From: a virus
Direction: 5' to 3' (one strand)
DNA: 29,879 nucleotides
Virus record (IMG/VR): IMGVR_UViG_3300032116_000966
Location: 1 to 29,879 of that record
Part shown: positions 2,414 through 27,184 of the stretch, in pieces
Layout: every line of letters begins with the position of its first letter
Numbering within the stretch: position 1 is the first letter of the stretch
The notes under the pieces: model-generated
Databases searched by the model: none
What the model was told of the DNA's origin: nothing
The model's input: only the letters and a program-made list of their open reading frames with translations
Program-made: the position numbers and the translations under genes

Positions 2414-2439
2414 TCGTAAGAAGAATCAGAGGGACCACA

Positions 2440-2482
2440 CTGGCACCGTATTGGTGACGAGCCGTCATCAGTACGGTGCCAG
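2440..2482 (+). terminator. Long hairpin, probable Rho-independent terminator
   Basis: An almost perfect inverted repeat: CTGGCACCGTA (2440-2450) pairs with TACGGTGCCAG (2472-2482), and the inner arms TGGTGACG and CGTCATCA pair with one wobble around an AGC loop. A-T pairing can add one more pair outside. It is followed by TTTGTTTG. It sits just after the decoration gene and ends 9 bases before the Shine-Dalgarno of the next gene. The U tract is interrupted, so it may be a partial terminator or an RNA processing/stability hairpin that sets capsid mRNA apart from downstream message. Confidence 0.75.
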
Positions 2483-2501
2483 TTTGTTTGAGGAGGGCAG
2501 C

Positions 2502-2873
2502 ATGTACTCGGAACCATGTGTCGCCGCCAGCACCCCGATGGACTCCCTGGCCGCCAAGGTCAAGGCGTTCGTCATCGTCGCCAGCCTGAAGGCACATGGC
2601 GGCCTGACGCTGGTGGAGTTCGGGGAACTGTTCCTGGCCCTGATGCGGCTGGCCATCGAGACCGTTGATACGCTCGATACCGCCGGGCCGCTGAAGAAGG
2701 AGATGGTTCTTGAGGCCCTCGGTCACCTGTTTGACGAGGTGGCTGACAAGGCAGTGCCGATCTGGTTCTGGCCCTTCTGGGTCATCGCCAAGCCTGCCGT
2801 CAGGGCTTCGCTCCTGGCTGCTGCCTCTGGTGCTATCGAGGTGGTCCTGCAACTGGTGAGGAAGAACTCGTGA
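2502..2873 (+). CDS. Small protein with hydrophobic C-terminal half, function unknown
   Basis: The start at 2502 was chosen because AGGAGG lies 5 bases ahead of it and because upstream in-frame codons run through the hairpin and the previous gene. The product has 123 residues. The first half is helical and mixed in charge; the second half contains IWFWPFWVIAKPAV followed by a hydrophobic helix (SLLAAASGAIEVVLQLV) and ends in RKNS. This suggests membrane association or a hydrophobic packing surface. It opens a run of membrane or exported small proteins ahead of a papain-like peptidase, so a holin-like role is conceivable, but there is no family match to support it. Confidence 0.7.
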   Translation: MYSEPCVAASTPMDSLAAKVKAFVIVASLKAHGGLTLVEFGELFLALMRLAIETVDTLDTAGPLKKEMVLEALGHLFDEVADKAVPIWFWPFWVIAKPAVRASLLAAASGAIEVVLQLVRKNS

Positions 2874-3010
2874 TCGCCATCATCTGCATCGTCGCCGCCG
2901 CCGCCCTGCTTCTGTGGCCGGTCAAGCCCGAGGTGACGGAGGTTGTGCAGGAAGAGCCCAAGAAGCCAGCGGCCAAGAAGCCCAGGCCGCGTAAGGAGAA
3001 GAAGCCGTGA
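2870..3010 (+). CDS. 46-residue single-span membrane protein (GTG start)
   Basis: A small gene starting with GTG that overlaps the previous stop by 4 bases (GTGA) and whose own stop overlaps the next GTG in the same way. The product begins IAIICIVAAAALLLW, one clear transmembrane helix, followed by an acidic hinge (EVTEVVQEE) and a lysine/proline-rich tail (KKPAAKKPRPRKEKKP). The tight coupling on both sides and the clean helix-plus-basic-tail design support a real gene. Such small one-helix proteins occur as pinholins, spanin parts or membrane adaptors in phage lysis regions; which applies here cannot be told from sequence. Confidence 0.6.
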   Translation: MIAIICIVAAAALLLWPVKPEVTEVVQEEPKKPAAKKPRPRKEKKP

Positions 3011-3468
3011 GCGAGAAGGCCAGGCACTACGCTGCTGCCGTCCTGGGTGCGATTGCCGTCCTGTCTCTGGCGACACGCTCCCGGGCTCCGACCCCGGCCC
3101 CCGACGACAAGCCCGCTCGCCTGGTGCTGGCTGGCAAGTTCATCGGCCCCACGGCCTCAAGCGACGCCGCCGCCGTTTCAGCCCTGTGTGATGAGTTGGC
3201 TCGGATCATCCAGGAGGACGGCCAGAGCAAAGAACCCCGTCTGAAGACCGGCATCCAGTTCGATGACCTGCGGATCACCGCCCGTGACATGCGGATGCAG
3301 GGCGAGTCCATTGGCGACAGGCAGCCCAAGGCACGCGACGAGATCTGCCACTTCTTGAACGAGGCCGTGGGCATCAGCGGCGGGCCAATCAGCCCCGAGC
3401 AGCGGGCCAAGTGGGTGGACGCATTCTTCGAGATCGCGGGGGCTGCCAGCCGTGCCTCAGGAAAGTAA
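3007..3468 (+). CDS. Exported or membrane-anchored small protein, function unknown
   Basis: GTG start inside a GTGA overlap with the gene before; 153 residues. The N-terminus reads as a signal or anchor: basic start (MSEKARH), hydrophobic core (YAAAVLGAIAVLSLA) and a possible cleavage region near SRA. The rest is a soluble, mostly helical domain with several charged helices, e.g. ALCDELARIIQEDG, ITARDMRMQGESIG and ISPEQRAKWVDAFFEIAG. No catalytic motif was recognised. Its end overlaps the start of the papain-like peptidase gene by 17 bases, so the two are probably translationally coupled; it might be a partner, inhibitor or chaperone of that peptidase (inference only). Confidence 0.75.
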   Translation: MSEKARHYAAAVLGAIAVLSLATRSRAPTPAPDDKPARLVLAGKFIGPTASSDAAAVSALCDELARIIQEDGQSKEPRLKTGIQFDDLRITARDMRMQGESIGDRQPKARDEICHFLNEAVGISGGPISPEQRAKWVDAFFEIAGAASRASGK

Positions 3469-4507
3469 GAGCCTGTTCACAGCGAAGTCCGTTGCCACCT
3501 GGCTGCTGCTGATAGCAGTCGGGATGGCCGTCGCTGCATTCCTGTCGCAGCCAGCCCCGCAGCGTTTCGGCTACACCCCGAACCCGGACGGCACCAGGCA
3601 GTTCCTGTCCGAACTGGACAAGCCTCTGTTCTCGCAGGCAGGCGAGGAAGCCATCCGTGAGGCCAAGGGCAAAGACACGTTCTTGTACCGGTCAGCCTAC
3701 AAGGCCCATCAGGCAGTCTACGGACAGCCGTGGGTCGTAGGCCGACAGGGCATAGGTGACTGCGTGTCCTGGGGCTTCGCTCATTCAGCATGGATCGCCC
3801 AATGCGTGGACTGGGAGACTGGACGCCTGGCTAATCCCCCGCCATTCCCCAGCACCGAGAGCATCTATGGCGGAAGCAGGGTCGAAGCCAGGGGCAAGAA
3901 GCAGGCCGGGTACTCCGATGGCAGTTACGGAGGGGCCGCCGCCAAGTGGCTCCGGGACTGGGGTCTTATATATAGACAGCAGTATCCGGGGCACGACCTG
4001 ACCAAATACTCCCCGGAACGTGCAAGAGACTGGGGAAATTGGGGGAATGGCGGCCAAAACGACCAGGGCAAACTGGACCTGATCGCCAAGACCCACCCCG
4101 CCAAGCATGTGGCCCTGGTCAAGAACTTCCGGGAGGCTGCGGCGGCCATTGAGTCGGGTTTTCCGGTGGCCGTCTGTTCAGGTTATGGGTTCCGGTCTGT
4201 CAGGGACGAGCAGGCGTTCTGTGCCCCATCTGGGACATGGCAACACTGCATGGCCCTGGTCTCGGTGAGGTACGACCGGCCTGGTCTTTTGTGCTTGAAC
4301 TCCTGGGGTCCGTCCTGGGTGTCCGGGCCTAAGTTTCCGTCCGACATGCCCGAGGGCTCCTTCTGGATCGACGCCAAGGTGATTGACGGAATGCTCGCAG
4401 GAGAAGACTCGTTCGCCGTCGGCAGCATCGACGGCTTTGGGTGGCGAGACCTGCATCATGGGAACTGGCTCTCGCCCGCACCTCTTGCCTTCTCTGTCGC
4501 CCCGTAA
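3452..4507 (+). CDS. Membrane-anchored papain-like (C1-type) cysteine peptidase
   Basis: A 351-residue protein. Residues 13-31 (SVATWLLLIAVGMAVAAFL) form a transmembrane or signal-anchor helix. The catalytic pattern of papain-type peptidases is visible: Q99 and C104 in RQGIGDCVSWGFAHSA (papain has QGxCGSCWAF), H265 in TWQHCMALVSVRYD, and N283 in CLNSWGPSW, the classic NSWG..W signature. The order Gln-Cys-His-Asn and the spacing fit the papain fold. Seen in sequence: the motifs and the anchor. Inferred: peptidase activity on the outer or periplasmic face. The GTG start overlaps the upstream gene by 17 bases. Its neighbours are small membrane proteins, suggesting host lysis or envelope breakdown; virion maturation is the main alternative. 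A non-catalytic papain-fold protein is less likely because all key residues are kept. Confidence 0.85.
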   Translation: MPQESKSLFTAKSVATWLLLIAVGMAVAAFLSQPAPQRFGYTPNPDGTRQFLSELDKPLFSQAGEEAIREAKGKDTFLYRSAYKAHQAVYGQPWVVGRQGIGDCVSWGFAHSAWIAQCVDWETGRLANPPPFPSTESIYGGSRVEARGKKQAGYSDGSYGGAAAKWLRDWGLIYRQQYPGHDLTKYSPERARDWGNWGNGGQNDQGKLDLIAKTHPAKHVALVKNFREAAAAIESGFPVAVCSGYGFRSVRDEQAFCAPSGTWQHCMALVSVRYDRPGLLCLNSWGPSWVSGPKFPSDMPEGSFWIDAKVIDGMLAGEDSFAVGSIDGFGWRDLHHGNWLSPAPLAFSVAP

Positions 4508-4515
4508 GGAGTCCG

Positions 4516-4776
4516 ATGATGGTCACGCTCTCGAAGCAATCCCTGGCAATCGTCTGCGTGGTCTGCTTGTTGATCGGCTACCGGGCGGCCAATGAGGTCA
4601 CGCCGAGCCCGCACGAATCGCGGCCGATCCTGGCGGCCATCGTGAAGTTCGCCAAGACAGCCCTGTGGTTCGCGGCCTTTGCCGAGCCTGCCCCGAGGGA
4701 CCAGAGCCATCAGATCCAGTCCGTGCTTGTGGACGAGCAGGGGTACGCACACCTCAATCACGCAAGGGGGTGGTGA
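4516..4776 (+). CDS. Small membrane protein, function unknown
   Basis: The start was placed at the first of two tandem ATGs (4516, 4519), which follow AAGGAG at 4506-4511; the open frame extends further upstream but there it lies inside the peptidase gene. The second ATG has the better spacing (7 bases) and may be the one used. The product has 86 residues: an N-terminal hydrophobic helix (LAIVCVVCLLIGY), a second hydrophobic stretch (ILAAIVKFAKTALWFAAFAE) and a polar tail ending LNHARGW. It abuts the cysteine-rich gene downstream with no gap. Two hydrophobic segments in 86 residues would fit a small holin, but this is speculation. Confidence 0.7.
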   Translation: MMVTLSKQSLAIVCVVCLLIGYRAANEVTPSPHESRPILAAIVKFAKTALWFAAFAEPAPRDQSHQIQSVLVDEQGYAHLNHARGW

Positions 4777-5058
4777 ATGTGGGAGTTCCTGATTTGGGTG
4801 CTGACCTGGATGTCGTCTGACCCCAAGGCCATCGACACTGAGCAGCCCCGGGCCGCCGCCGCTGTGCGTGCCGCCTACGCCACCTTTGCCACCGAGCCGC
4901 CCCCGGCCCCAAAGCCTGCCGAGTGCGTCTGTGGCGGAACATGCAAGGACGGCTACTGGAAGCCAGACGGCAGAATCGTGCAGAAGTGCCCCTGCCCCGT
5001 GACCTGTAAGTGCAAGTCCGCCGGGAAGTGCCCGGACGGCCAGTGCCCAAAGAAGTGA
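4777..5058 (+). CDS. Cysteine-rich small protein, possible metal-binding or disulfide-rich
   Basis: 93 residues; the ATG directly follows the preceding TGA, with AAGGGGGTGG upstream. The first 12 residues are hydrophobic (MWEFLIWVLTWM), a possible membrane contact. A Pro/Ala linker (EPPPAPKPAE) leads to nine cysteines at residues 50, 52, 56, 71, 73, 77, 79, 85 and 90, in CxCxxxC, CxCxxxCxC and CPDGQC patterns rich in Gly, Lys and Pro. This could bind two zinc ions or fold by disulfides if exported. It closes the membrane-protein block that holds the peptidase. No named family was recognised. Confidence 0.75.
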   Translation: MWEFLIWVLTWMSSDPKAIDTEQPRAAAAVRAAYATFATEPPPAPKPAECVCGGTCKDGYWKPDGRIVQKCPCPVTCKCKSAGKCPDGQCPKK

Positions 5059-5085: not shown

Positions 5086-5598
5086 ATGCCCTACCCAGAG
5101 AAATACCAGAACTACAAGAGTTTCGGGCCCCAGGACATGCCGCCCTTTCGGGAGGTCCCCCAGCAGCCGCAGGCCGCCCCGGAGAACGATGAGCAGCGAC
5201 TGGCATTCCTGTTCAGGATGCACTCGCAGACTCCGGGTTGGGGCAACCGTGCCGCCATGGAGATGCGGAATCGGGCGGGAGCCCAGGAGGTCCCCCAGCA
5301 GCCGCAGGCCGCCCCGGGGCCGGACATGCTCTCGTCAGAGGACCGTATCCGCAGGCTGCAGCAGGATGTGCGTGACTCTATGTACTCGCCCCCGGATCCG
5401 ATGCTGGAGGGCGTGCCGCAGTCCACGATGTCGGATGCAAGAGAAATGCTCGTGCCGCCGCCCAACCACATCAAAGTCCCGGATCTTCTGACGGGCGAGG
5501 AAGTGTGGCATCCCACTAAGAAGCGACAGCCATTGGCACGGGCCAATCCGAAGAAGTCTGCGCCGCCCAAGCGGAAGCCCGGGTACACGCTCGACTGA
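5086..5598 (+). CDS. Small proline/glutamine-rich protein with a duplicated motif
   Basis: 170 residues; AAGGAA lies 9-10 bases ahead of the ATG. Residues 34-67, starting NDEQRLAFL and containing GWGN.AAMEMRN.AGAQ, are nearly the same at protein and DNA level as residues 435-470 of the 642-residue protein at 25256. In this gene the motif sits between two copies of EVPQQPQAAP (residues 23-32 and 68-77), encoded by identical 32-base repeats. The C-terminal part is basic (KKRQPLARANPKKSAPPKRKPGY). The shared motif suggests both proteins bind the same partner, perhaps in the virion. Function unknown. Confidence 0.75.
   Translation: MPYPEKYQNYKSFGPQDMPPFREVPQQPQAAPENDEQRLAFLFRMHSQTPGWGNRAAMEMRNRAGAQEVPQQPQAAPGPDMLSSEDRIRRLQQDVRDSMYSPPDPMLEGVPQSTMSDAREMLVPPPNHIKVPDLLTGEEVWHPTKKRQPLARANPKKSAPPKRKPGYTLD
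5151..5182 (+). repeat. 32-base direct repeat, copy 1
   Basis: Perfect direct repeat beginning GGAGGTCCCCCAGCAG and ending GCCGCCCCGG, identical to 5286-5317. Both copies are in the same frame of the same gene and encode EVPQQPQAAP. They bracket the motif segment that has a near-identical copy at 26558-26665. Confidence 0.95.
5185..5286 (+). repeat. Motif cassette shared with the gene at 25256 (copy A)
   Basis: 102 bases starting AACGATGAGCAGCGACTGGC and ending GGGAGCCCAG. Apart from a two-codon indel and a small number of substitutions clustered in the middle, it matches 26558-26665. The first 27 bases are identical. The match includes third codon positions, so it reflects recent DNA duplication or gene conversion, not only protein conservation. 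Confidence 0.9.
5286..5317 (+). repeat. 32-base direct repeat, copy 2
   Basis: Second perfect copy of the repeat at 5151-5182, on the downstream side of the 103-base motif segment. The copies are 135 bases apart start to start, a multiple of three, so loss or gain of one repeat plus the segment by recombination would keep the frame. Confidence 0.95.
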
Positions 5599-5648: not shown

Positions 5649-5981
5649 ATGTCATCCATCATCCGGCAACTGCGACAGCAACTGGCCATGCAGCAAGAGA
5701 TTGCTCGCAGGCTCAATCGCCCCATCGACCTTGAGCAGATGGCGATGGACAACGAGGACTACGCCCGCAGCATGATCGAGCAGAACGAGAACTCCCTCGT
5801 GCCTCTCGACCCGCAGATGATAAAGGAACTCTACGGCTTCATGGACGAGCCCATGCCTGCCGACATGGCCATGGACGACATGTACCGAAAGGGCATCCAG
5901 GAGAAGTTGAAGGCCGCCAGGGAAGGCGGCGGAGTCGCCTCGGCCCCCATGATTCGATCTATCATGCAGTTAGACAGGTGA
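5649..5981 (+). CDS. Small helical protein, function unknown
   Basis: 110 residues, Met- and Gln-rich. The N-terminal half is a probable helix (IIRQLRQQLAMQQEIARRLN), and the middle holds acidic Met-rich stretches (LYGFMDEPMPADMAMDDMY). No other in-frame start exists between the preceding stop and 5649, and no good Shine-Dalgarno is at normal distance. It lies just before the zinc-finger/terminase pair. Composition resembles small phage assembly factors, but nothing specific can be assigned. Confidence 0.65.
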   Translation: MSSIIRQLRQQLAMQQEIARRLNRPIDLEQMAMDNEDYARSMIEQNENSLVPLDPQMIKELYGFMDEPMPADMAMDDMYRKGIQEKLKAAREGGGVASAPMIRSIMQLDR

Positions 5982-5984
5982 CGC

Positions 5985-6680
5985 ATGATCGCTGCCAGCA
6001 AGGATCGGCAGTGCATTGTCTGCCAGCATGTCAAAACGCTGAACGAGAAGAACTTCCAGCGATACGGCGGCAAGGACGGTGACTGGAAGACGGTCTGCCG
6101 GTCCTGCCAGGGGAAGGCCCGTCGGCAGCGGCGGATGGACCGGATCGAGAAGAAGGCCGTGTCCCACATGCTGGACGCGGCGGCCATCGGCGGGGCCAAC
6201 ATCCCGCACACGGCGGAGTTGCTGGAAGCCATCCTGCACTACTTCGGCGGCACCAACGGCTTCGCCGCACTGCTGCTGAAGCAGTACTTCGAGTCCCCTC
6301 CGGGAAGCAGGATTCGGACCTCGGTGCTGGAGATGATCGTCCGGCTCGCATCCAAGAACACCGAGCAGGGAGGGGCCAAGAAGCCCATCCAACTTTACTC
6401 CGAAGAGGAGTTGGAACAGGAGATCGACGCTCGCATCCGTCAGGTTGCCAGCATGACGCGAGTATCAGGGAGGATCGTAGATGCCCAAGAAGACACCGCC
6501 GCCGCAGCAACCGCTGCCGACCATCAAGAACTTCTCGACGTTCCAGCAGGACGAACTGCGGGCACTGCAGGGAGAATTGAAGTCGAGGCGGCTAGAAGCC
6601 TTGAGGCTCTACAGGCCGACGCCCCTGCAGTGGGAGTACCACCAGTGCATGGCGAGCGAAACCCTGGTGATCGGGGGTAA
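5985..6680 (+). CDS. Zinc-finger protein, candidate small terminase subunit
   Basis: 231 residues. Residues 10-41 hold C10-x2-C13 and C38-x2-C41 with an intervening K.L.EKNFQRY pattern, a zinc-binding knuckle of the type seen at the start of many phage HNH/endonuclease VII-like and DNA-binding proteins; a basic stretch (KARRQRR) follows. The rest is helical with an acidic segment (YSEEELEQEIDARI). Position directly before the large terminase suggests the DNA-recognition (small) terminase subunit, but the fold was not confirmed. The last 66 codons overlap the terminase gene in another frame and turn into a low-complexity Ala/Glu/Asp/Val tail, which may be unstructured. Confidence 0.6.
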   Translation: MIAASKDRQCIVCQHVKTLNEKNFQRYGGKDGDWKTVCRSCQGKARRQRRMDRIEKKAVSHMLDAAAIGGANIPHTAELLEAILHYFGGTNGFAALLLKQYFESPPGSRIRTSVLEMIVRLASKNTEQGGAKKPIQLYSEEELEQEIDARIRQVASMTRVSGRIVDAQEDTAAAATAADHQELLDVPAGRTAGTAGRIEVEAARSLEALQADAPAVGVPPVHGERNPGDRG

Positions 6681-25255: not shown

Positions 25256-27184
25256 ATGAGCAATATCATTCGAGATCAGCAGCGTAGGCGACTTGGGCTA
25301 CCCGACCCGAACGAGGTGCCGTTCCCGGAACAGGCCCGTGACGTCAAGAACTGGATGGAGCGAAGGACCTCGGCGGACATCGAGCCAAGGCCGGTGCCCG
25401 CCATCCCAGGTCAGGTCGGCGGTGGTCCGCCCGATGGCTATGGCTCGGTCAGCCTAGATGGCGATCCGGCGGACGCATACAACTCGCCCGATCTTCATGT
25501 GGCCATGGACGGCATGATGGCCGGGATGTTCCCGCAGCAGCCGGACATGGTCCCGGAAGATCCCCCGATGGCTCCGCCGGACCTGCCTACGCACTACGAT
25601 CCCGCCGAAGAAGCCAAGCGAAAGCAGAGTTACTGGGCCAACTCCCCGGCGGCCAGGGACTTCGAGCATCGGTACCCCAAGAACGAGTACTCGGATGTCA
25701 GCCCTCGTCCTCAGGGCCCTTTCCCCACCCAGCAGGCAGCGGCACAGTCACTTCGGCCAGTCGGCAGCCCGCCTCCTGCCCCGGAGCCTACCCGCATCGC
25801 CACGCCAGCAGAGGCTGACGAGATGATGAAGGAGGCCGGTGCCGTCCAGATGCCGCCCTACAGGCGGTGGGTGGACTCGACCGGCCGGTACGCCGTTGTC
25901 GGACGAGCCGTGGGGTACGAGAACGGGGATGTCATCATCCAACGCCAAGACGGCAGCACCGTGGCGGTCGCCATGGACAAACTCAATCCCTACGACCAAG
26001 GGTACACCCAAAGCGTCCTCCCGCAGTCTCGGGTGGCACGGCAGCCGACGCCCGCAGCCCCTGTTGCTGCTGCCGCTCCGGCACCTGCCGCTGCTCCGAC
26101 TGTAGCAGCCACGCCGCCCGCCCCACGCAACGCTGGCCCTGAGTCGCTTGTGCCTGGCCCAGGCGAGGAGTTGGAGGCCGACGCCCCTGCCGCCGCAGAG
26201 AACCGGGCCAGGCCCGTCCCCATGCCTGGAACACCAGAGAATCGTGAGCGGTTCCTGGCCAGAACCTGGCCACAGATCGGACATGCGGCCGAGAGCCATG
26301 GGCTGTTCCTCGAAGATCGCCAGACCAAGAACGGGGATCGCATCCCCGGGCTGCGCTCGATCTACAACAATGCCGCACAGCAGGGTGGCCACGAGGCCGG
26401 AGTGCGGGCTATCAACATGGCCCTCATGGCTGTCCGCACCGAAATGCGTGCCGCCAGAGAACAGGAAAAGCAGCAGAGAATCGCGGAGTTCAAGCAAGCC
26501 AGGATGATGGGCGTCGCTCCGCAGGCATATCAGCAGTACCGCAGCATGTCGTTTGCCAACGATGAGCAGCGACTGGCATTCCTGACCATGATGCACTCGC
26601 AGAATCCCTATATGGGTTGGGGCAACCTTGCCGCCATGGAGATGCGGAATCAGGCGGGAGCCCAGCAGGCCGGGGCCTTGGGCGGCGATGACCAGCCCCT
26701 GCCCGCCGCGAGGGAGGCCCAGAACCTGGCTATCATCAACGCCGCCCCCGTCGGGCCAGGGACGCTGGCTGCGTTCACCAACCACTACCAAAGCACACAG
26801 GCTGGCAGGGCCAACCCGAATGGTGCCAAGCCGTACCTCAAGACCGCTGGGTCGGTGAAGTACAAGGAGTTGCACGGCAACCCGAACCTGACGCCTGAGC
26901 AGGACGCATTCGTCCGCGAGTATTTGCAACTGTACCCCACCTATCAGGCGTTCCGCGCTCAGTTGGGAATCCCGGACACCCCCGCCAATCGGCAGTGGTG
27001 GGAGTCCAAGACCGACAAGAAGGCTGAAGGGCTTGGAGAGCGAGCCTTGAACGCCGTCACTCAAGGGGCGAGTGCGGCCGGTGCTGCCGGTCAGCAACTT
27101 TGGAACTATGCGTTTCCGCCGAAGCCGGAGGATAACGCTGTCGCTGACGGCAAGAAGCCCGGACGAAGGCCCTTCGACAAGTAG
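25256..27184 (+). CDS. Large virion protein candidate carrying an SHD1-like domain
   Basis: 642 residues. Residues about 203-250 read as an SHD1 (SLA1 homology domain 1): RRWVDSTGRYAVVGRAVGY, then NGDVIIQRQDGSTVAVAMDK, then LNPYDQGY; the family pattern is R.W.D..G...V.A..V....G.V.L...DG..V.V....L...D..Y. SHD1 is a small beta-rich domain common in planctomycete proteins. Residues 435-470 hold the motif shared with the gene at 5086. Flanks are Pro/Ala/Met-rich linkers; residues 325-430 are helical. The C-terminus is helical with a Gly/Ala patch (ALNAVTQGASAAGAAGQQLW). Its place among giant proteins suggests a virion or ejected protein that meets host components (inference). Confidence 0.75.
   Translation: MSNIIRDQQRRRLGLPDPNEVPFPEQARDVKNWMERRTSADIEPRPVPAIPGQVGGGPPDGYGSVSLDGDPADAYNSPDLHVAMDGMMAGMFPQQPDMVPEDPPMAPPDLPTHYDPAEEAKRKQSYWANSPAARDFEHRYPKNEYSDVSPRPQGPFPTQQAAAQSLRPVGSPPPAPEPTRIATPAEADEMMKEAGAVQMPPYRRWVDSTGRYAVVGRAVGYENGDVIIQRQDGSTVAVAMDKLNPYDQGYTQSVLPQSRVARQPTPAAPVAAAAPAPAAAPTVAATPPAPRNAGPESLVPGPGEELEADAPAAAENRARPVPMPGTPENRERFLARTWPQIGHAAESHGLFLEDRQTKNGDRIPGLRSIYNNAAQQGGHEAGVRAINMALMAVRTEMRAAREQEKQQRIAEFKQARMMGVAPQAYQQYRSMSFANDEQRLAFLTMMHSQNPYMGWGNLAAMEMRNQAGAQQAGALGGDDQPLPAAREAQNLAIINAAPVGPGTLAAFTNHYQSTQAGRANPNGAKPYLKTAGSVKYKELHGNPNLTPEQDAFVREYLQLYPTYQAFRAQLGIPDTPANRQWWESKTDKKAEGLGERALNAVTQGASAAGAAGQQLWNYAFPPKPEDNAVADGKKPGRRPFDK
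26558..26665 (+). repeat. Motif cassette shared with the gene at 5086 (copy B)
   Basis: 108 bases inside the 642-residue protein gene, matching 5185-5286 with two extra codons (NPYMGWGN against TPGWGN). This copy lacks the flanking 32-base repeats found around copy A, so it is more likely the older or donor copy (inference). Confidence 0.9.

Follow-up and report, generated by a model that had tools for sequence, protein, structure and literature searches.

A predicted papain-type cysteine peptidase with an N-terminal membrane anchor is encoded in the 29,879-base IMG/VR virus record that was analysed here at its full length (the window). With a probability of roughly 0.6, we consider that phages of Planctomycetota lyse the host, or breach its envelope, by means of a protease-based cassette in which this peptidase is the effector; such a cassette would suit a protein- and disulfide-rich envelope. 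Sequence comparison showed the conservation of the cassette, its mobility and its replacement by other protease classes, and pointed to the likely host phylum.

An earlier note on this DNA had assigned Gln99, Cys104, His265 and Asn283 to papain-type motifs, and the four residues were found at those positions. Together with Ser284, Trp285 and Gly286 they are invariant in an alignment of 25 representatives, and they are near-invariant among 143 distinct homologues collected with a wider profile (gaps set aside: Q 131/131, C 133/133, H 140/141, N 137/140). Gln99 and Cys104 were still invariant in 17 very divergent members, with identity down to 22%. The Gln/Cys/His/Asn order of family C1 is present in the window peptidase and its relatives, and the conservation of the catalytic residues ruled out over-reading of a chance motif. 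Because sequence searches gave nothing usable (no Pfam family up to E 1, no match in PHROGs, nothing among PDB sequences with the family profile, and mexicain at E 0.39 with phmmer), fold and family context were used instead. An AlphaFold2 model built with the family alignment as input (pLDDT 83, pTM 0.81) placed Cys104 at the start of a long central helix (104–122), His265 within a strand (256–273) and Asn283 just after another (278–282). In a Foldseek search of the PDB, this model gave 179 matches at E ≤ 0.001; xylellain was the best (E 1.5e-10), followed among the 50 matches listed by cathepsins B, K and L, cruzain and papain. The model thus supports the papain fold that had been proposed. 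With papain, the cathepsins and xylellain (3OIS) the peptidase shares the predicted fold, the order and identity of the four catalytic residues and the NSWG motif, whereas it differs from family C1 in having no Pfam C1 match, only ~16% of residues identical when structurally aligned with xylellain, an N-terminal membrane anchor instead of any propeptide that could be recognised, and a phage cassette as its context. We conclude that it is C1-like by fold and active site, yet outside the reach of the family profile. The proposed N-terminal membrane helix was likewise borne out, since a hydrophobic segment was present in 25/25 representatives (19-residue Kyte-Doolittle score 2.34 on average, 1.79 at the lowest).

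The peptidase gene is the fourth of six tightly packed genes spanning 2502–5058, in the order c4, a 1-TM protein, c2, peptidase, c5 and Cys-rich c33, and the first four overlap at their ends (Table 1). The small membrane and Cys-rich neighbours described earlier are real: among related loci whose flanks are long enough, the share in which they accompany the peptidase ranges, by partner, from 75/76 to 86/86.

Table 1. Features of the cassette region, in window coordinates.
Feature	Position	Strand	Remarks
Long hairpin with T-rich tail, between cement gene and cassette	2439..2483	+	Terminator-like
c4, 123 aa, partly hydrophobic, first cassette gene	2502..2873	+	Homologues in 75/76 loci upstream of peptidase
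46-aa single-TM protein, c24-like position	2870..3010	+	Start overlaps preceding stop; TM at residue 1
c2, 153 aa: N-terminal membrane segment, Pro-rich linker, helical bundle	3007..3468	+	With peptidase in 76/76 loci
Papain-type (C1-like) cysteine peptidase, predicted, membrane-anchored	3452..4507	+	GTG start; 351 aa; Q99, C104, H265, N283; TM ~ residues 8–31
c5, 86 aa, one or two TM segments	4516..4776	+	c5 or equivalent in 86/86 loci
c33: N-terminal hydrophobic segment, Ala-rich helix, Pro-rich linker, Cys-rich domain	4777..5058	+	c33 or c64 in 86/86 loci

The hairpin ahead of c4 contains an inverted repeat (2436–2459/2463–2486; 24 nt, 88% complementary) and has 20 pairs; a scan of the region found nine terminator-like structures against 2.8 in shuffled sequences. 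We infer that this hairpin may keep transcription of the cassette apart from that of the capsid genes. The first gene product, c4, had no match in PHROGs or Pfam; it was considered as a holin candidate by its position only, and the claim was dropped for want of family support. Proteins similar by eye to the 46-aa protein occupy the same position in relatives, including those with non-papain genes in the slot. The c2 protein has a homologue in Blastopirellula marina (E 9.5e-24), and its AlphaFold2 model (pLDDT 88.6) consists of a membrane helix and a helical bundle for which a fold search against the PDB found no relative. In c5, the C-terminal tail is conserved as an HxxGW pattern, mostly HARGW or HGRGW, that fits 37 of 47 distinct sequences, while the rest varies; the tail could be a docking or cleavage site. 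In many members, the Cys-rich part of c33 resembles by eye the zinc finger of DnaJ. In prophage cassettes, thioredoxin domains take the place of c33 or are fused to it: the B. marina prophage and MAG RI_54 have at this position secreted proteins that match Thioredoxin in Pfam, and prophages G338 and G428 have a Cys-rich part ahead of a CxxC segment, for which Pfam confirmed thioredoxin in G338 and not in G428. No window cassette gene matched known holin or spanin families, and a related cassette gave only a weak holin match (L338, 7388–7612; phrog_1296, E 0.0022) and a weak Rz-like spanin match (E 0.027). Two further arrangements were noted: a 3-TM protein resembling the GlsB/transglycosylase-associated family within the cassette of a planctomycete MAG contig (L108, 2988–3236), and an array of eight paralogous multi-TM proteins adjoining the cassette at the contig end of RI_54 (L122–L123, 57063–65272).

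Between the cassette and the terminase gene, three more window proteins were observed. A 170-aa protein (5086–5598) shares the stretch NDEQRLAF..MHSQ..GWGN.AAMEMRN.AGAQ with a large protein at 25256–27184, which by sequence is a partial duplication within the genome. The small protein upstream of the terminase (5649–5981) ends in ..IRSIMQLDR; among the slots of 71 relatives, 25 encode small proteins with LDR-type tails, which suggests a conserved C-terminal interaction motif. Ahead of the terminase, 5985–6680 encodes an Endonuclease VII-like N-terminus (PHROG 1035, E 1.3e-04) at the place where a small terminase subunit might be expected, and similar proteins stand there in several window-type relatives.

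We asked whether these phages carry another lysin. In agreement with the earlier note, which had seen no muramidase, amidase or endopeptidase lysin, no known peptidoglycan hydrolase was found in the window, which covers about half a genome (relatives, 60–64 kb), so that the other half may encode an endolysin; one window protein gave a marginal match to PG_binding_1 (E 0.0084), which is not catalytic. Pfam scans of genes called within single sequence pieces of four near-complete related genomes, G029, G027, G002 and G010, likewise found no peptidoglycan hydrolase family; the families seen were those of capsid, portal, terminase, tail, integrase, replication and protease proteins. Completeness of these records was inferred from gene order and end overlap (G029, 60.7 kb with both ends in one gene; G027, 61.9 kb with a 55-base end repeat; G002, 44.0 kb; G010, 43.6 kb), and the results for G002, G010 and G027 comprise the best 25 families, the listed matches reaching about 3e-5, 4e-3 and 5e-4, respectively. 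Phage_lysozyme was found in 0/14 records and Amidase_2 in 0/20, with control genomes positive; very divergent peptidoglycan hydrolases would be missed by such scans.

The lack of another peptidoglycan hydrolase in the related near-complete genomes could also mean that the peptidase is an ordinary endolysin, a papain-fold enzyme cutting the peptide cross-links of planctomycete peptidoglycan as NlpC/P60 or CHAP lysins do, and its position and membrane setting are those of an endolysin. The statement in the earlier note that planctomycetes have little peptidoglycan was too strong, because they do possess it, and lysozyme attacks it and disrupts the cells (PMC4432640). The enzyme could therefore cut peptidoglycan peptides, and proteolysis alone may not suffice. 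We nevertheless consider an endolysin of this kind unlikely, since xylellain, cathepsins and papain, all of them true C1 peptidases, head the structural matches, the oxyanion Gln and NSWG are not those of CHAP or NlpC enzymes, and the cassette swaps or pairs with subtilisin and trypsin-like proteins, which are proteases of proteins. Lysis or envelope breaching, the reading that the earlier note had favoured, remains the best supported, given the predicted papain fold, the lack of a standard endolysin in near-complete genomes and the independence of the cassette from capsid and tail genes (see below).

The cassette was found in at least four unrelated phage backbones. In the window lineage it lies between the cement and terminase genes; it is carried by the integrase phages G002, G003, G009 and G010 (32–44 kb records); in type II phages it lies directly upstream of the capsid gene in 32/33 loci with enough flank; and in the B. 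marina prophage it has regulator-like genes on one side and, on the other, TerL/portal genes of a different kind. Record G017 was left out, as gene calls there did not show its own peptidase. Movement as a block between unrelated backbones is a feature of lysis cassettes, and this spread makes it unlikely that the function depends on one particular capsid or tail. The same evidence bears on a virion or assembly protease, either for capsid or tail maturation, which the earlier note had offered as its alternative, or as a virion-borne entry enzyme. The cassette does adjoin capsid genes in the window and in type II phages. It stands away from them, however, in the 44-kb phages and the papain/subtilisin 60-kb phages, and it travels among phages with unrelated capsid, terminase and tail genes. 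Prohead proteases are cytoplasmic and co-inherited with one capsid type; most members here have an N-terminal membrane anchor, and their partners are membrane proteins. Maturation of capsid or tail was rejected, since the cassette follows no capsid type and moves independently of capsid and tail genes, and we consider a virion protease in general very improbable.

Next, the content of the cassette slot was compared among 80 relatives of the window capsid protein. In those with at least 92% identity, the papain cassette follows the cement gene wherever the record extends far enough to show it. Other window-type relatives have in the slot a membrane-anchored CAP-domain protein and a 1-TM protein resembling c24, sometimes with an added protein of 220–260 aa containing HExxH-type motifs (HEMQHG, HELTHG, HEMNHG) that had no match in Pfam; these HExxH and CAP proteins are at most candidate proteases. 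Alternatively, the slot contains a divergent papain without a membrane helix beside c2-like and DnaJ-type Cys-rich proteins. More distant relatives (~60 kb) have no such genes in the slot, and elsewhere in the genome have an operon of c4-like, subtilisin (PF00082), 1-TM, c2-like, papain, c33-homologous and small TM/coiled-coil proteins. Among 14 long records, papain was present in eight, CAP in five, both in none and neither in one (Fisher p = 0.003, relatedness of the records ignored); subtilisin was present in five, always near papain. In L329, the one exception among type II phages, the slot contains a divergent papain-like protein that Pfam does not recognise, together with a secreted protein that combines a Cys-rich and a trypsin-like part (Trypsin_2, E 8.7e-20). 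These papain, subtilisin and trypsin-like swaps indicate that the slot or cassette is occupied time and again by proteases that differ in class but are secreted or linked to the membrane.

A mobile cassette of anchored and secreted proteins, which prophages carry too, might instead serve envelope remodelling other than lysis, such as superinfection exclusion, removal of receptors or defence proteins, or another accessory role, and two chromosomal copies (G400, G191; see below) could be domesticated. Against such a role, the cassette is present in nearly all members of whole lineages (32/33 loci; partners 76/76 and 86/86), it is replaced rather than lost in other relatives, as for an essential gene, and the same phages have no other recognisable lysis enzyme. 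We regard remodelling as quite improbable.

The guess of a planctomycete host was supported: the same cassette with close peptidase homologues was found in prophages of Blastopirellula marina and other Planctomycetota. The peptidase family was detected in 5 of 84,980 species genomes scanned, namely B. marina DSM 3645 (an isolate), two planctomycete MAGs, one further MAG and one alphaproteobacterial MAG, in which the copy is on one short contig and may be misbinned. Among sampled Planctomycetota genomes, 11/392 carry the family, with several copies in clear prophages beside terminase and portal genes. The window capsid protein matched one distant prophage without the cassette in planctomycete genomes (G408; 26% identity, E 4.5e-34), and the window TerL matched none, B. 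marina included. By these comparisons a planctomycete host is likely at the level of the phylum. One window protein, probably that of 25256–27184, contains an SHD1 domain (E 4.3e-07); SHD1 domains are frequent in planctomycete proteins and would fit such a host. Papain copies in G400 (L256, 9478–10886) and G191 (L257, 9141–11051), both in reversed coordinates, lie in chromosomal-looking surroundings outside obvious prophages, next to a c2-like protein that is also lipoprotein-like and to thioredoxin or Cys-rich proteins; the G400 match has one in-frame TGA. This papain block is possibly a domesticated module. The rarity of C1 peptidases in phages, as claimed in the earlier note, has to be qualified. 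No relative of the window peptidase was detected by tblastn in 50,697 INPHARED records, but IMG/VR contained 137 confirmed loci with the window protein as query and at least 466 pattern-confirmed loci with the family alignment as query, and other C1 proteins are present in uncultured Caudovirales.

Phage lysis of Gram-negative-type cells is described as the work of a holin, a peptidoglycan hydrolase and a spanin. With the canonical cassette of Gram-negative phages the present one shares a compact block of small membrane proteins with a hydrolase, a variable place in the genome and modular exchange; it differs in that the hydrolase is a predicted protease, no holin or spanin match is convincing, and there is an extra Cys-rich/thioredoxin component. 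Since a peptidoglycan hydrolase was sought and not found in the near-complete genomes, and the holin match was only weak, we place the cassette outside the canonical kind. SAR endolysins such as Mu gp22 and P1 Lyz (PMC9239132) likewise have an N-terminal hydrophobic helix, a short basic tail and a block of small membrane proteins, and P1 Lyz is also under thiol control. The catalytic domain here has a predicted papain fold and matches no peptidoglycan hydrolase family; it is not the peptidoglycan-degrading lysozyme domain of SAR endolysins, and anchor-less relatives exist; the coexistence of anchored and anchor-less papains parallels that of SAR and holin-dependent endolysins. The helix resembles a SAR domain only loosely, with an Ala/Gly/Ser/Thr share of 39% on average (n = 25; 42% in the window protein) against 50% in Mu gp22 (PMC9239132). 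By analogy, the nearest functional parallel is provided by PeiW and PeiP, pseudomurein endoisopeptidases of methanogen phages (PMC4592898), which are also phage peptidases and lysins fitted to a non-murein wall; they differ in cutting pseudomurein isopeptide bonds, in showing no sequence relation and in having no cassette of proteases.

Several features together led us to read the block as a lysis block: the small membrane proteins, one or two hydrolases, anchored and anchor-less enzymes, replacement instead of loss, and no other lysin. In the protease-based lysis proposed here, we infer export topology, timing, triggering, the role of thiols, the substrate and lysis itself as follows. The cassette would be expressed late in infection. 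The N-terminal helix would serve the peptidase as signal anchor for Sec-dependent insertion, placing the papain domain outside the cytoplasmic membrane; anchor-less relatives would, like ordinary endolysins, depend on a holin for their exit. At least one of c4, the 1-TM protein and c5 may trigger release or access. Thiols may be the target of the Cys-rich c33 or its thioredoxin counterpart, which would maintain the catalytic Cys in its reduced state or else open up wall proteins joined by disulfides. Cleavage of structural envelope proteins by the protease would then burst the cell; alternatively, given the peptidoglycan, loss of its protein anchors may be enough for the wall to give way. Consistently, the SDS-resistant envelope of planctomycetes has been described as Pro- and Cys-rich protein stabilised by disulfides (PMC3035269).

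More tentatively, planctomycete phages may possess a separate kind of lysis without a peptidoglycan hydrolase, in which a protein wall joined by disulfides is taken apart by exchangeable proteases (papain, subtilisin, trypsin-like and probably zinc-dependent) with the help of a secreted redox partner, either thioredoxin or a Cys-rich protein. A prior description was not found in the literature on planctomycete phage lysis or papain-like phage lysis, and planctomycetes, papain and subtilisin all go unmentioned in the main text of a survey from 2025 that deals with the lytic proteins of prokaryotic viruses (PMC12596118). Protease lysis is testable in cultured hosts, for example B. marina. If true, it would help annotate hundreds of uncultivated phage fragments now without a lysis gene, provide the first candidate lysins and genetic tools for Planctomycetota, and give an independent sign of the load-bearing material in the disputed planctomycete envelope, protein wall or peptidoglycan.
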